This document shows positions 8,181 to 29,839 of a stretch of DNA of 29,839 nt, piece by piece. Position 1 is the first letter of the stretch. Every line of letters starts with the position of its first letter. Source of the DNA: a virus; IMG/VR virus record IMGVR_UViG_3300027974_000115, positions 1 to 29,839 of that record. One strand, 5' to 3'. The notes under the pieces are model-generated. The model made no database searches and was not told the origin of the DNA. It saw only the letters and a program-made list of their open reading frames with translations. A program made the translations under genes and the position numbers.

Positions 8181-8651
8181 ATGGCTCAAGGTACAACATA
8201 TGGTCTTAATTTCCCTTTTAGAGATTCTAGTAGGGGAGATTATTTGCAACTTACTCAGTTTGAAGCACAAGAAATTAAAGCGGATTTAATTCATCTTTTG
8301 TTAACAAGAAAAGGTTCAAGATATTTTTTACCTACTTTTGGAACAAGATTATATGAATTTGTATTTGAACCGTTTGATGGACTTACATTCGACGCAATTG
8401 AATCTGACATAAGAGATGCTGTGGCAAACTTTATGCCAAATCTATTGTTAAACAATATAACAATCACCCCTGCAGACCCACAAGAGGAAGTTGATATTGC
8501 AACAGGTCAAAGCACATTAGGAACAACTGAATCTCCAATATATAGATTTCCAGGAAAAGGAACTTCGGATTACACGGCAAAAGTTAAAATAGACTACTCA
8601 ACAGATAAAAACACTTATTCGCAGAGTGATTTTGTTATTATCAATATTTAA
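8181..8651 (+). CDS. baseplate wedge protein, gp25-like
   Basis: A 156-aa protein of the gp25/GpW family, the small baseplate wedge protein that joins the sheath initiation site to gp6 in contractile tails. The diagnostic part is residues 31-60 (EIKADLIHLLLTRKGSRYFL followed by PTFGTRLYEFVFEP), containing the G-x-R ... P-x-F-G-x-x-L core of this family. A C-terminal extension (PADPQEEVDIATGQSTLGTT, about 98-117) goes beyond the minimal family length. It is the first gene after the terminator and stands 5 bases before the gp6-like gene, the same gp25-gp6 pairing found in many contractile-tail phages and related injection systems. The name lysozyme sometimes given to this family is not implied; no lysozyme active site is visible. 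Confidence 0.9.
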   Translation: MAQGTTYGLNFPFRDSSRGDYLQLTQFEAQEIKADLIHLLLTRKGSRYFLPTFGTRLYEFVFEPFDGLTFDAIESDIRDAVANFMPNLLLNNITITPADPQEEVDIATGQSTLGTTESPIYRFPGKGTSDYTAKVKIDYSTDKNTYSQSDFVIINI

Positions 8652-8656
8652 TATAA

Positions 8657-10495
8657 ATGGCAAATCGTAAAATATCATATACAACCAGAGACTATCAAGG
8701 AATAAGAACTGAGTTATTAAATTATGTAAGAACATATTATCCTGAATTAATTCAGGATTTTAATGACGCTTCTGTATTTTCAGTATTCTTAGATTTGAAT
8801 GCTGCGGTCGCAGATAACCTACATTATCATATTGATAGAAGTATTCAAGAAACAGTTCTTCAATACGCACAACAAAGGTCTTCAATTTATAACATTGCAA
8901 GAACCTATGGTTTAAAATTGCCAGGTCAAAGACCTTCAGTATCTTTAGTTGATTTTTCAATTACAGTACCTGCGTTTGGAGACAAAGAAGATGAAAGATA
9001 CTTAGGAACACTTACAAGAGGTTCTCAAGTGACAGGAGCGGGAATAGTTTTTGAAAATATATATGACATTGATTTTACATCACCATATAACGCCCAAGGA
9101 TTCCCGAATAGATTAAAGATACCTAACTTTAACGCAAATAACGTTTTAATTAACTATACCATTACAAAAAGAGAACTTGTTGTTAATGGTATTACTAAAG
9201 TATTCAAAAGAGTTATTGGGCCAAATGATGTTAGACCATTTTTTGAATTATTCTTACCTGAAAAGAACGTATTAGGTATTACTAGTGTTTTATTAAAAAG
9301 TGGAACAGAGTATACAAACTTACCAACAGCTGCAGAATTCTTAGGAGCTTCTAATAAATGGTATCAAGTTGACGCATTAGCCGAAGATAGAGTGTTTATT
9401 GAAGACCCTACAAAAGTATCAGACCAGCCAGGTATTAAAGTTGGAAAATATATCCAAACTCAAAATAGATTTATTAGCGAGTACACTTCTGAAGGATTTA
9501 AAAAGATGACATTTGGTGGTGGAACTAACACCGCTCAAGATGCATTAAATCAATTTACAACATTAGGTACAACATTAGACTTACAAAGATATTCTAATAA
9601 CTTTTCATTAGGTTCTGCATTAATCCCTAATTCAACATTATTTATTCAATATAGAGTCGGTGGTGGATTAGCAACAAACTTAGGTACAAATGTTATTACT
9701 CAAATAGGAACCGTTTCATTTTATGTTAATGGTCCTTCAGAGTCAACTAACTCTTCAGTAGTTAACTCATTAAGATGTACTAACGTGACTGCGGCTATCG
9801 GTGGAGCAGGTATTCCTTCGTTAGAAGAAATTAGAAACTACGTTTCATTTAACTTTGCCGCACAAAAAAGAGCGGTTACAGTACAAGATTATGAGGCGAT
9901 TATTAGAAATATGCCATCAGAGTTTGGAGCTCCTGCCAAAGTTTCAATTACGGAAAACAATAACAAAATTTTAATTCAGTTATTATCTTACGATACATCA
10001 GGTAAATTAACAAGTATAGTATCTGATACATTAAGACAGAACGTTGCAACATATCTTTCTAATTATAGAATGATGAATGATTATATTTCAATATTAACTG
10101 CTGAGGTTATTGACCTTAGTGTTGATGTTCAAATTGTATTAGACTCTGCACAAAATTCAGGACAGATTATTTCTGATGTTGTTGATAAGATATCTACATA
10201 TTTTAATCCACAAGTAAGACAACTTGGTCAAAACGTTTATCTATCTGAGATTAGAAGTATTGTTCAAAATCAAAATGGTGTTTTAACTGTTGCGGGTCTT
10301 AACGTTTATAATAATGTTGGGGGGCAATACTCTTCGGCTGAAACGTCAATGCAATATTCAAATCCCGAAACAAAAGAAATTGTACCTGTTGATGATACAA
10401 TTTTTGCTCAACCATCACAAGTTTATCAAATTCGTTATCCAAATAAAGACATCAGAATTTCGGTTAAAAACTTCCAATCGGTTACCTTCTCTTAA
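8657..10495 (+). CDS. baseplate wedge protein, gp6/gpJ-like
   Basis: A 612-aa baseplate wedge subunit of the T4 gp6 / P2 gpJ superfamily, whose dimers form the ring that triggers baseplate opening. Supporting features are the N-terminal segment SYTTRDYQGIRTELLNYVRT with DASVFSVFLDLNAAVADNLH (residues 6-56), and the central AAQKRAVTVQDYEAIIRNMP (about 400-420), which is the most conserved part of the family. After that comes a repeat of beta-rich wedge domains. The length is close to T4 gp6. It starts 5 bases after the gp25-like stop and is followed by a 96-base gap containing the second candidate late promoter. No signal peptide or membrane segment is present. Confidence 0.85.
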   Translation: MANRKISYTTRDYQGIRTELLNYVRTYYPELIQDFNDASVFSVFLDLNAAVADNLHYHIDRSIQETVLQYAQQRSSIYNIARTYGLKLPGQRPSVSLVDFSITVPAFGDKEDERYLGTLTRGSQVTGAGIVFENIYDIDFTSPYNAQGFPNRLKIPNFNANNVLINYTITKRELVVNGITKVFKRVIGPNDVRPFFELFLPEKNVLGITSVLLKSGTEYTNLPTAAEFLGASNKWYQVDALAEDRVFIEDPTKVSDQPGIKVGKYIQTQNRFISEYTSEGFKKMTFGGGTNTAQDALNQFTTLGTTLDLQRYSNNFSLGSALIPNSTLFIQYRVGGGLATNLGTNVITQIGTVSFYVNGPSESTNSSVVNSLRCTNVTAAIGGAGIPSLEEIRNYVSFNFAAQKRAVTVQDYEAIIRNMPSEFGAPAKVSITENNNKILIQLLSYDTSGKLTSIVSDTLRQNVATYLSNYRMMNDYISILTAEVIDLSVDVQIVLDSAQNSGQIISDVVDKISTYFNPQVRQLGQNVYLSEIRSIVQNQNGVLTVAGLNVYNNVGGQYSSAETSMQYSNPETKEIVPVDDTIFAQPSQVYQIRYPNKDIRISVKNFQSVTFS

Positions 10496-25507: not shown

Positions 25508-27196
25508 ATGGCACTTTATAATATTTTAGTCGTAAATAACGCACCTGGTTGTAATGACACTACAGTAACTGAACAAGTTAGTGTAAGTGCATGTACAACA
25601 TACATAGTAAGATTAGCTTCCAACTCAAATGCGTTAGGCCCATTTAGCATTTATGTTAATACATCGTTCTTCGGTTCAGGGTATACAAGAACAGATATGT
25701 TCAACGGAGTAGTAGTTTCTTTAGATTGTACAACACCTACTCCAACACCAACTCCATCGATAACTCCAGGGGCAACATTAACTCCAACTCCATCAGAAAC
25801 TGCGACTAATACACCGACTCCAACAGAGACTGCAACTAATACGCCAACACCAACAAATACACCAAGTCCAACTCCTACAATAGGAGCTAGTCCTACGCCA
25901 ACTGAAACTGCAACGCAGACACCTACAGTAACTCCGACAAATACTCCAACCGTAACACCAACTAACACTACAACCGTAACACCAACTAACACAGAAACTC
26001 CTACAAGTACTCCAAGCGAAACTCCTACAAATACACCAACGGTAACGCCAACAGAAACTCCAACAAATACACCAACTAATACTGCAACTGTAACTCCAAC
26101 TAATACTGAAACTCCAACTAATACTCCAACAGAAACTCCTACAACTACACCAACTAATACTCCAACCGTAACACCAACAAATACTGAAACTCCAACACAG
26201 ACTCCAAGTGAGACTCCTACAAATACGCCAACTAATACAACAACTCAAACACCAACCAACACCGCAACTAACACAGAAACTCCTACAAGTACTCCAAGCG
26301 AAACTCCTACTAATACACCAACGAATACTCCAAGTGTTACTCAAACATCAACGAATACTCAAACACCAACTCCGACTGTAACCGCAACTAACACTGCTAC
26401 CGTAACTGCAACATCAACACCTACACCAACAGAAACCGCAACCGCAACTCCAACAGCTTCGATAACTGCAACACCGACTGAGACAGCAACTGCAACACCA
26501 ACTGCTACAACTACTGCGACAGTTACACCAACAATGACACAAACTCCAACAGTAACGCAAACACCAACAAATACTGCAACTCCAACTAATAGTATGACTC
26601 CAACAATGACCCAAACACCGTCACCAACAGGAGCTCCATTCTTGGCATATTTAACAATTGAACCTCAAGCTCAGAATGTTAACTTCAACGGATGGATGGT
26701 ATCTCAAGGTTCAACGTTCCGTGGATTCTTCAATAATGGAGCAACTACTGCAAACGCTGTAACATTTAATCAACAGATGAATGCTTACTTGAACTACTCA
26801 GGATGGGGAGGAAACTCACCTGCAATTATTACAGGTACAATTTCTCCGACATCAGGAGGAAACGATTTTTACGGAAATCCAATCAATGCGTACTTGTTCC
26901 AAACTACGCAAGTATCAGGAGGTACAACACCAAGTAATGCTTGGTATACATGGTATGTTTCAACAGGAGCGACAAACGGTCAGATTATGACTCAAATTGG
27001 AACAAATACCGCAAATAATCCAAACGCATTAACCGCTAGAAATTTAAATTCAGCATATTACAATCTAACAATCAATTATACGGGAGGAACAATCCCTCCA
27101 GGAACATATCGTGTTTACACGACATATTCTGGTACAGATTTTAGAATAAATGCCTCAGTAAATAATGTTTACTTTAAAGGGAACACCTTAATATAA
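25508..27196 (+). CDS. surface protein with Thr/Pro-rich stalk, 562 aa
   Basis: Three-part protein. Residues 1-74 are an N-terminal beta domain with P-F-S-I-Y-V and three Cys, similar in look to the preceding small protein and probably its attachment to the virion. Residues 75-374 are a 300-residue low-complexity stalk of T-P-T/T-E-T/T-N-T units (for example [20 protein letters not shown]), with no Lys, Arg or aromatic residues and one Met-containing stretch near its end. Residues 375-562 form a C-terminal globular domain ([20 protein letters not shown] ... [14 protein letters not shown]), likely the exposed receptor-binding or display head. Such Thr-rich stalks resemble mucin linkers and might be O-glycosylated in a Bacteroidota host, although the host's D-S/T-hydrophobic sequon is not present in the stalk. 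There is no signal peptide. The exact function is unknown. Confidence 0.8.
25730..26629 (+). repeat. Thr/Pro-rich low-complexity stalk repeat
   Basis: About 900 bases encoding 300 residues dominated by Thr, Pro, Asn, Glu, Ser, Ala. Building blocks such as actcctacaaatacacca recur with synonymous variation (act/aca, cca/ccg/cct). The two antisense frames that stay open here are a by-product of this composition. Confidence 0.9.
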
Positions 27197-27212: not shown

Positions 27213-29839
27213 ATGAGCTTTAACTATCAAAATCCAATAGCAGGAACTATCAACGAAGGACCAATCGGCGTTTCTCTTGATAACAGTAATGGTACAAACT
27301 TCAGTGTATACTCTATAGGTGGGTATATGGAAGTTTACTCGCACCAAAATTTAAACTATACAATACCTGAGGGAAGCTCGGGTCAAATTTTGTATAGTGG
27401 GAATACTATACCTATCGCATTCAATTATAATGCACCAAATGAATTTCCAAATGTTTTAACACTTAATAGTGATGAAATATCTTCAGGTAGAAGACGTTTA
27501 GGTATGATGGTATATGTTATATCTGCGGATACCACATATCAATATATTATTGATGGTTATGCTGCATTATGGGATGCTGCACAAATTTCAGGAGCTCTTG
27601 GATTTGATGGATTTGGATGGACATGTGAAGACAGTACTGTAGCGGGAGCCGCGTTTTTAAATGCGTGGACAGGTTCGACTATTGAAGGTGTTAGTGGTGT
27701 TACAAGAGAAAATGCGAGATGGAAAGTTGCGAATATGAACGATACTGTTATTACAGGAGGTACATATTTTTCAGCAACAACTACATTACAATTATACGAC
27801 AATTATGGAGCCACTGTAACTGTTACAGGATTTACAGGAACAGTAACGGGAGGAACATATAACAGTGGTACCTCAACGTTATCTCTTAATAATAGTGACG
27901 GTAGTGTAGTATCAATTACAGGTATAACTTCAGGGTCTGGCTCAGCCTTATCCGTTGGAGACGGAACAACAACAGTTACTTCCGTTTCAGGAATTACATT
28001 CAGTGGAGCATCGGTAGTAAATAATGGTAGTGGAAACATTACCGTAGTAATAACAGGAGGAACTAGTGGAACATCAGGTTCATCAGGAACAAGTGGAATA
28101 GATGGTAGCTCAGGAACTTCTGGTTCAAACGGAACAGACGGTTCAAGTGGAACTTCAGGTTCTAATGGTACAGATGGTTCTTCAGGAACTAGTGGTAGTA
28201 ACGGAACAGACGGTTCTTCAGGAACTTCAGGTTCAAATGGTACAGATGGTAGTTCAGGGACTAGTGGAATAGATGGTTCAAGTGGAACTTCAGGTTCTAA
28301 CGGAACAGATGGTTCTTCAGGAACTAGTGGTAGTAACGGAACAGATGGTAGTTCAGGAACTAGTGGAATAGATGGTTCAAGTGGAACTTCAGGTTCTAAT
28401 GGTACAGACGGTTCTTCAGGAACTAGCGGTAGCAACGGAACAGATGGTAGCTCAGGAACTAGTGGTAGTAATGGAACAGATGGTTCTTCAGGAACTAGCG
28501 GTAGTAATGGAACAGATGGTTCTTCAGGAACTAGCGGTATAGATGGTAGTTCGGGTACCTCAGGAACAGATGGTTCATCAGGAACAAGTGGAATAGATGG
28601 TAGCTCAGGAACTTCTGGCTCAAACGGAACAGACGGTAGTTCAGGAACTAGTGGAATAGATGGTTCTTCAGGAACTAGCGGTAGCAATGGAACAGATGGT
28701 TCTTCAGGAACTAGCGGTATAGACGGCTCAAGTGGAACTTCAGGGTCTAATGGAACGGATGGTTCTTCAGGAACCTCAGGTATAGATGGTAGCTCAGGAA
28801 CTAGCGGTAGCAATGGAACAGATGGTTCTTCAGGAACTAGTGGAATAGATGGTAGCTCAGGAACTAGCGGTAGCAATGGAACAGATGGTTCTTCAGGAAC
28901 AAGTGGAATAGATGGTAGTTCAGGAACTTCAGGTTCTAATGGAACAGACGGCTCTTCAGGAACAAGTGGAATAGACGGTAGCTCAGGAACTTCTGGTTCA
29001 AATGGAACAGACGGTTCAAGTGGAACTTCAGGTATAGATGGTTCTTCGGGAACTAGCGGTATAGATGGTTCTTCGGGAACTTCAGGTTCTAATGGAACTG
29101 ATGGTTCTTCAGGAACTAGTGGAATAGATGGTAGCTCAGGAACTTCGGGTTCTAATGGAACAGATGGCTCTTCAGGAACTAGTGGAATAGATGGTTCTTC
29201 GGGAACTAGTGGTAGCAACGGTACAGACGGTTCAAGCGGAACTTCAGGTTCTAATGGAACTGATGGCTCTTCAGGAACTAGCGGAATAGATGGTTCTTCA
29301 GGAACTAGTGGAATAGATGGTAGCTCAGGAACTTCGGGTTCTAATGGAACAGATGGCTCTTCAGGAACTAGTGGAATAGACGGTTCTTCAGGAACTTCTG
29401 GCTCAAACGGAACGGATGGTAGCTCAGGAACTTCTGGCTCAAACGGAACGGATGGTAGCTCAGGAACTTCGGGTTCTAATGGAACAGATGGCTCTTCAGG
29501 AACTAGTGGAATAGACGGTTCTTCAGGAACTTCTGGCTCAAACGGAACGGATGGTAGCTCAGGAACTAGTGGAATAGACGGTTCATCAGGAACTTCAGGT
29601 TCAAACGGAACAGATGGTTCTTCAGGAACTTCTGGCTCAAACGGAACGGATGGTAGCTCAGGAACTAGTGGAATAGATGGTAGCTCAGGAACTAGCGGTA
29701 GCAACGGAACAGATGGTTCTTCAGGAACTAGTGGAATAGATGGTAGCTCAGGAACTAGCGGTAGCAACGGAACAGATGGTTCTTCAGGAACTTCTGGCTC
29801 AAACGGAACGGATGGTAGCTCAGGAACTAGCGGTAGCAA
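27213..29839 (+). CDS. collagen-like Gly-X-Y tail fibre protein, 3' end beyond window (partial)
   Basis: Open from ATG 27213 to the right edge (875 codons plus two bases), with no stop codon; the 3' end is outside the window. Residues 1-288 are an N-terminal structural part (FNYQNPIAGTINEGPIGVSL ...), Gly/Thr/Ser-rich towards its end, where a G-T-S G-T-S run leads into the array. From residue 289 a strict Gly-X-Y array follows, made only of Gly, Ser, Thr, Ile, Asp and Asn with no proline. It consists of 54 complete modules: 23 of 9 residues (22 GSSGTSGID, one GSSGTSGTD) and 31 of 12 residues (GSSGTSGSNGTD), plus a partial one. Collagen-like fibres are known on other phages, where they form trimeric stalks; the lack of proline makes a polyglycine-II-type or other fibre an alternative. 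It probably ends in a receptor-binding tip. The opposite strand is also open here but does not encode a credible gene. Confidence 0.85.
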   Translation, partial: MSFNYQNPIAGTINEGPIGVSLDNSNGTNFSVYSIGGYMEVYSHQNLNYTIPEGSSGQILYSGNTIPIAFNYNAPNEFPNVLTLNSDEISSGRRRLGMMVYVISADTTYQYIIDGYAALWDAAQISGALGFDGFGWTCEDSTVAGAAFLNAWTGSTIEGVSGVTRENARWKVANMNDTVITGGTYFSATTTLQLYDNYGATVTVTGFTGTVTGGTYNSGTSTLSLNNSDGSVVSITGITSGSGSALSVGDGTTTVTSVSGITFSGASVVNNGSGNITVVITGGTSGTSGSSGTSGIDGSSGTSGSNGTDGSSGTSGSNGTDGSSGTSGSNGTDGSSGTSGSNGTDGSSGTSGIDGSSGTSGSNGTDGSSGTSGSNGTDGSSGTSGIDGSSGTSGSNGTDGSSGTSGSNGTDGSSGTSGSNGTDGSSGTSGSNGTDGSSGTSGIDGSSGTSGTDGSSGTSGIDGSSGTSGSNGTDGSSGTSGIDGSSGTSGSNGTDGSSGTSGIDGSSGTSGSNGTDGSSGTSGIDGSSGTSGSNGTDGSSGTSGIDGSSGTSGSNGTDGSSGTSGIDGSSGTSGSNGTDGSSGTSGIDGSSGTSGSNGTDGSSGTSGIDGSSGTSGIDGSSGTSGSNGTDGSSGTSGIDGSSGTSGSNGTDGSSGTSGIDGSSGTSGSNGTDGSSGTSGSNGTDGSSGTSGIDGSSGTSGIDGSSGTSGSNGTDGSSGTSGIDGSSGTSGSNGTDGSSGTSGSNGTDGSSGTSGSNGTDGSSGTSGIDGSSGTSGSNGTDGSSGTSGIDGSSGTSGSNGTDGSSGTSGSNGTDGSSGTSGIDGSSGTSGSNGTDGSSGTSGIDGSSGTSGSNGTDGSSGTSGSNGTDGSSGTSGS
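29316..29432 (+). repeat. 117-base exact direct repeat, copy 1
   Basis: Identical over 117 bases to 29451-29567 (offset 135 bases = four modules: 36+27+36+36). The flanking bases differ on both sides, so this is a recent local duplication within the collagen-like array. Confidence 0.9.
29451..29567 (+). repeat. 117-base exact direct repeat, copy 2
   Basis: Second copy of the 117-base repeat at 29316-29432, in the same reading frame. Confidence 0.9.

Follow-up and report, generated by a model that had tools for sequence, protein, structure and literature searches.

Collagens are usually said to owe their stability to imino acids and to pairs of opposite charges (PMC13138384), and those known from bacteria and phages depend on Pro at position X together with charge pairs (PMC3368898, PMC8968730, PMC13138384). 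A gene at the end of the 29,839-nucleotide stretch of viral DNA analysed here (IMG/VR record IMGVR_UViG_3300027974_000115, hereafter the window) encodes a long Gly-X-Y array that lacks both. This locus raises the question of what kind of structure such an array forms, and by what means it could be held together.

The reading frame and the array it encodes

The gene lies on the + strand at 27213..29839. Translation from ATG 27213 meets no stop up to position 29839, where the window, a truncated viral contig, ends inside the Gly-X-Y array. The start codon is supported by residues M1-S2, which are conserved in nearly all relatives of the protein. The complete gene was found in a separate assembly (L003) and encodes 1530 aa; residues 283-1395 form 371 uninterrupted triplets, and the last 135 aa do not follow the Gly-X-Y pattern. 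The 109-kb contig IMGVR_UViG_3300027763_002462, from another assembly, contains the whole window with 0 mismatches in 29,839 positions, and two further assemblies match the window's sequence through the fibre gene. Misassembly as the origin of the array was thus ruled out, because four contigs from different assemblies are identical base for base.

In the window the array occupies 28059..29839 (+ strand, residues 283-875) and consists of 198 triplets, which are solely GTS, GSS, GTD, GSN and GID. That is, it contains no proline, and Asp is its only charged residue, as had been predicted. The pattern is also as strict as described, although the run begins at residue 283 (nt 28059), six residues before residue 289, where its start had been placed. 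Residues 289-867 (28077..29813, + strand) parse without remainder into 54 exact modules in the order originally reported, namely 31 copies of the 12-residue module GSSGTSGSNGTD and 23 modules of nine residues (22 GSSGTSGID and one GSSGTSGTD). This two-module grammar holds for the window part only, because the complete gene also contains GIS, GVN, GVS, GES, GTA and GSA. The residues of the full-gene array are G, S, T, D, N and I plus two V, two A and one E, with 0 Pro and 0 Lys/Arg. If Pro and Lys+Arg were as frequent as in the other proteins of the window, 198 triplets would be expected to contain about 16 Pro and 34 Lys/Arg, and 371 triplets about 30 and 63; both observed numbers were 0. The absence of Pro and Lys/Arg from the array is not due to chance.

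The 60 copies of the 12-residue module occur in 46 DNA versions, all of which encode one peptide. The variation falls on codon position 3, and positions 1-2 vary solely at Ser codons (TCN/AGY), of which both kinds are found at identical module positions. The synonymous versions and the mixed Ser codons thus indicate that the peptide, and not the DNA, has been kept. A frame of 678 aa is open on the - strand (27803-29839), but it reads the same modules as 17 different peptides; the codon variation rules out antisense coding of the array, and this frame is a by-product. It is therefore exceedingly improbable that the repeat is driven by the DNA, as an assembly artefact or as coding on the other strand, for although nearly all family contigs end inside the array and the - strand frame is open, the contigs agree, the codon variation fits the + frame alone and the N-terminal domain is conserved on the + strand. 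Among the 80 best family loci, 77 are open at their end, some of them merely from the extent of the stretch taken.

Searches against the collagen and phage fibre profiles had been proposed as a check. The protein matched the Pfam Collagen profile PF01391 (1.2e-87, 288 bits against a cut-off of 27.2). PHROG tail-fibre profiles matched in the array only, and no PHROG profile matched the N-terminal domain at E<=0.001. The PHROG matches of the full protein were set aside as homology, because they arise from array composition. When the PDB was considered as a source of a solved Pro-free Gly-X-Y fibre, the matches were ordinary collagens and a Pro-containing fibril, found through the Gly spacing. 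The array's matches to PF01391, PHROG and the PDB are compositional, and they are silent on stability. Of the features of collagen, the array has Gly at every third residue and has neither imino acids at X/Y nor opposite charges, which are typical of collagen-like proteins and bacterial collagens rather than strictly defining.

The N-terminal domain family and the exchangeable shaft

The N-terminal domain (N-domain; 27213..28058, + strand, residues 1-282) is conserved in at least 318 viral stretches that matched in a profile search. It includes repeats of presumably beta-type fold, ITGGTYxSxTxTLxLxNxxGxxVxITGxT, at 27753..27932 (+ strand, residues ~181-240). It has no relative in Pfam, none in PHROG at E<=0.001, none in a profile search of the PDB sequences, and none was found in annotated phage records. 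An AlphaFold model of the N-domain from 12 sequences reached a pLDDT of 41 and was not used. A protein search with the array returned no relatives, for which the low-complexity filter is probably responsible.

In the best 80 of the at least 318 relatives we counted 13,181 triplets, with 0 Gly substitutions, 1 Pro, 3 Lys/Arg, 12 His and 2,433 Asp/Glu; this set includes near-duplicates, and the counts are hence not independent. Relatives down to ~50% N-domain identity still obey the same rule of constant Gly and near-zero Pro and Lys/Arg. Position X is occupied by Thr, Ser or Ile, with some Val and Leu, and position Y by Ser, Asp or Asn; Ile, Val and Leu keep to X, and Asp and Asn keep to Y. One relative with a 96% identical N-domain (L005) has different array units, GTSGID/GTSGTD. 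Array units are thus replaced more quickly than the N-domain changes, but the Gly spacing stays fixed, which we read as selection for a Gly-dependent structure.

Several relatives carry two arrays in one protein. G006 (2733 aa) has 369 and 336 triplets with a knob between them, G008 (2796 aa) has 191 and 568, and G009 (1803 aa) has 180 and 262. The knobs are exchanged and lie in phase between the arrays; the knob of G009 is shared with G008, and its C-terminal domain with L015. At least three unrelated C-terminal domains stand behind the one N-domain, a combination of constant N-terminus and variable tip that is characteristic of tail fibres. One relative, L370, on a small contig assigned to a metagenome-assembled genome, has no array, and more of the beta-type N-domain repeats stand where other relatives have it. 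Its N-domain (43% over 261 aa, 3e-46) and its C-terminal domain (43% over 75 aa, 2e-12) both match those of the family. The array is thus an exchangeable shaft module, since L370 joins the same N- and C-terminal domains through a short beta shaft; the family offers an example of how, with both end domains retained, a Gly-X-Y shaft can take the place of a beta-structured one. The L370 contig was placed in the bin of a marine Euryarchaeota genome and is probably a mis-binned viral contig.

A second array gene lies directly downstream in L003, L015, G008 and G009. In this second gene we found in-phase Gly-to-Ala changes (ATS/ATA) in 40 of ~526 triplets in G009 (L366) and in 7 of 149 in L015 (from ~10636), whereas they were never seen in the first array gene. 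The changes in the second gene of G009 fit a strict triple helix less well.

Genome context and the proposed fibre

Upstream of the fibre gene lie genes of recombination and replication (UvsX-like, exonuclease, DnaB-like helicase) and then ribonucleotide reductase genes. These are followed by baseplate wedge genes, gp25-like (8181..8651, + strand) and gp6-like (8657..10495, + strand), by large virion genes, by a SprB-repeat protein (PF13573; 22903..25035, + strand) and by a Thr/Pro-rich repeat protein (25508..27196, + strand). The fibre gene therefore stands in a baseplate/tail-fibre region, with both wedge genes upstream on the same strand. The order resembles that of Flavobacterium phage immuto, where tail fibre and tail spike genes have been annotated at a like position. 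Immuto and Microcystis phage Mel-JY01 are the nearest named phages for the gp6-like protein (~26-27% identity), and the ribonucleotide reductase is nearest to those of Cellulophaga and Tenacibaculum phages (~42%). The SprB repeat is familiar from Bacteroidota. A Bacteroidota host is likely.

The Thr/Pro-rich neighbour has 70 Pro in 562 aa, showing that this genome has no difficulty in encoding Pro repeats; genome composition as the cause of the missing Pro is countered by this gene. Its repeats have the form TPTNTPTxTPT, and a relative has several such genes (L363, L364).

For the C-terminal domain (C-domain), AlphaFold with nine sequences predicted an eight-stranded beta-sandwich at a pLDDT of 85. 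A profile search of the C-domain against the PDB sequences gave no matches. In a Foldseek search the model matched tail-fibre proteins of the cyanophages S-SM2 and S-TIM5 (TM 0.74-0.76), a virion protein of S-SCSM1 (TM 0.83), and Acinetobacter phage tailspikes and T4 gp9, so that the predicted fold is of the type found at fibre tips. The tailspikes and gp9, which are the solved relatives of this fold, are homotrimers.

A tail-fibre role is thus supported by gene position, by domain architecture and by the predicted C-domain fold, and with it the original prediction of a phage fibre with the collagen pattern. We consider it likely that the protein is a subunit of a tail fibre, or of a comparable host-recognition fibre, of a T4-like phage with a putative homotrimeric collagen-type shaft, probably infecting a Bacteroidota host. 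In such a fibre the conserved N-domain would attach the protein to the virion, the Gly-X-Y array would form the shaft, and the swappable beta-sandwich would be the tip, which, judging from architecture and fold, may nucleate trimerisation, bind the receptor, or both. Most likely, the three chains would wind round one another as a collagen-type helix. With a rise of 0.288 nm per residue (PMC3368898), the 1,113 array residues of the window's phage would give a shaft of ~320 nm, and the two arrays of G008 (759 triplets) one of ~650 nm. Among predicted phage fibre shafts, that of the window's phage would rank with the longest.

How could such a shaft be stable? Gly would allow close packing of the chains, and the imino acids and ion pairs may be replaced by backbone hydrogen bonds, by the very long cooperative length and by water at low temperature. 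Asp-bound cations are a further candidate stabiliser, and O-glycans on Ser/Thr possibly also stand in. Taken comprehensively, we propose tentatively that a stable trimeric fibre of the collagen class, hundreds of nanometres long, can exist without imino acids or ion pairs. It may follow another rule, which might consist of backbone packing with Ser/Thr hydration, of Asp-metal binding, of O-glycans made by the phage, or of a non-twisting polyproline-II bundle.

Alternative readings and related arrays

The array might depend chiefly on modification. That is, enzymes encoded by the phage might O-glycosylate the Ser/Thr-rich array, and the glycans would hold the helix together, as was proposed for the spore collagen BclA. 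Glycan stabilisation has likewise been proposed for the cuticle collagen of vent worms. Ser or Thr is offered by every triplet except GID, and the 109-kb contig encodes a PF11397 GlcNAc-transferase (2.7e-66), a GT25 match and fucosyltransferase-type GT10 and GT11, as well as GT2 and GT1/4 enzymes and sugar-nucleotide genes. PF11397 was present in 16/16 contigs of the fibre family but in 1/12 other viral contigs, and GT25 in 14/16 and 2/12, respectively. However, the 16 contigs are one clade, so that the association is not independent, and the glycosyltransferases may instead act on DNA, lipopolysaccharide or the capsid. A general link between PF11397 and Pro-free arrays was rejected, because the association is perfect within the clade and absent outside it, where PF11397 was found in 1/23 contigs of phages with the same kind of array. 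For this reason glycosylation is treated here as a rival and not as a finding; as the main source of stability we regard it as possible, on the doubtful side.

The glycosylation cluster of the 109-kb contig (L278-L282; ~63-68 kb and 77-97 kb) consists of PF11397, GT25, GT10, GT11, GT2, GT1/4 and HtrL/YibB genes, together with genes for UDP-glucose dehydrogenase, an epimerase, a DegT aminotransferase, a PglD-like protein and an NAD synthase. Near the PF11397 and GT25 genes the same virus encodes a small Gly-X-Y protein of 247 aa with 31 Pro-free triplets (L281, 1861-2601, - strand).

A polyproline-II or polyglycine-II assembly other than collagen, that is, a non-twisting bundle as in the phage S16 adhesin, the snow flea antifreeze protein and the C1q stem, seems unlikely. 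Such bundles are of the same sequence type, with Gly-rich helices of polyproline-II kind that do not need Pro or other imino acids, and non-twisting triple-stranded forms exist (PMC11869133). However, the helices of the S16 adhesin and the snow flea protein (both cited in PMC11869133) are short and fold back through frequent turns, whereas the array of the complete gene runs for 371 triplets, or 1,113 residues, without a turn; the known form, a polyglycine-II sandwich, is therefore unlikely. Nor did the array match the sequences of 6F45 or 2PNE at E<=0.001.

The array might also be a flexible, disordered spacer with a strong negative charge, which would hold the C-domain on a tether and form no fibre; we judge this improbable. 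Its composition (G, S, T, N, D) is linker-like, its modules turn over quickly and array lengths vary widely in the family. A linker would hardly keep Gly at every one of 13,181 triplets in the best 80 relatives, or such fixed preferences at X and Y, and a structural rod is suggested both by the in-phase knobs and by the fact that the array stands in for a beta shaft. A collagen-type shaft thus stays our preferred reading of the array.

We then compared the array with other viral Gly-X-Y arrays. A scan for any DNA pattern of 20 Gly-X-Y triplets, not chosen by composition, gave 119 viral loci among the matches listed. In the longest run of these loci, Pro made up >=10% of X/Y in 67, 2-10% in 23 and <2% in 29, a few of the last being GG-type repeats. 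The original statement that the usual phage arrays rely on proline was thus overstated. Over all runs, counted for 107 loci, Pro was <1% in 21, and 13 of these also had <1% Lys+Arg. A second scan with one Ser/Thr-type motif found at least 117 loci, whose 24,758 triplets contained 220 Pro. Judged by sequence, Pro-poor arrays are a sizeable minority of viral Gly-X-Y arrays, of which the window's array is an extreme variant, and Pro-free arrays are a recurrent viral sub-class, with the window's family among its longest and purest members. The Pro content of viral arrays rises with flanking GC (Spearman 0.43), so that Pro-poor arrays may be favoured where the genome is AT-rich. We found nothing specific to these arrays, or to proline-free collagen, in open-licence papers, which is weak evidence of novelty.

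Among known systems, the E. coli prophage fibres EPclP (PMC3368898; PF01391) likewise have a Gly-X-Y shaft between non-collagen N- and C-terminal domains, and their array length varies by whole triplets as in the window's family. However, they carry Pro at about half of X, plus Asp/Glu and Lys/Arg, in at most 322 residues, compared with 0 Pro and 0 Lys/Arg in 1,113 residues here. The streptococcal Scl and Bacillus BclA proteins (PMC8968730) are also collagen-like without hydroxyproline and rich in Thr and polar residues, and BclA is glycosylated; unlike the window's array, they keep Pro at X, Scl has charged residues, and both are cell or spore proteins.

An array that is as long as animal fibrillar collagen and constant in Gly across a viral family suggests either that the usual rules are incomplete or that a hidden modification is at work. 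Because it has neither Pro nor positive charge, it is a naturally occurring test case for the requirements of a collagen-type fibre. With its two repeat units the module is simple, can readily be produced and lends itself to direct testing.

A parallel with a different N-domain is the published record of the 735-kb uncultured huge phage LR756501 (L372), which likewise has Pro-free arrays, of 245, 307 and 223 triplets in one 3488-aa frame. Its C-terminal region resembles that of G006, whereas its N-domain differs from that of the window's family. Adjacent fibre genes of this phage also have Pro-free arrays, and one frame contains a Pro-free array (93 triplets) and then a Pro-rich one (163 triplets, 144 Pro).
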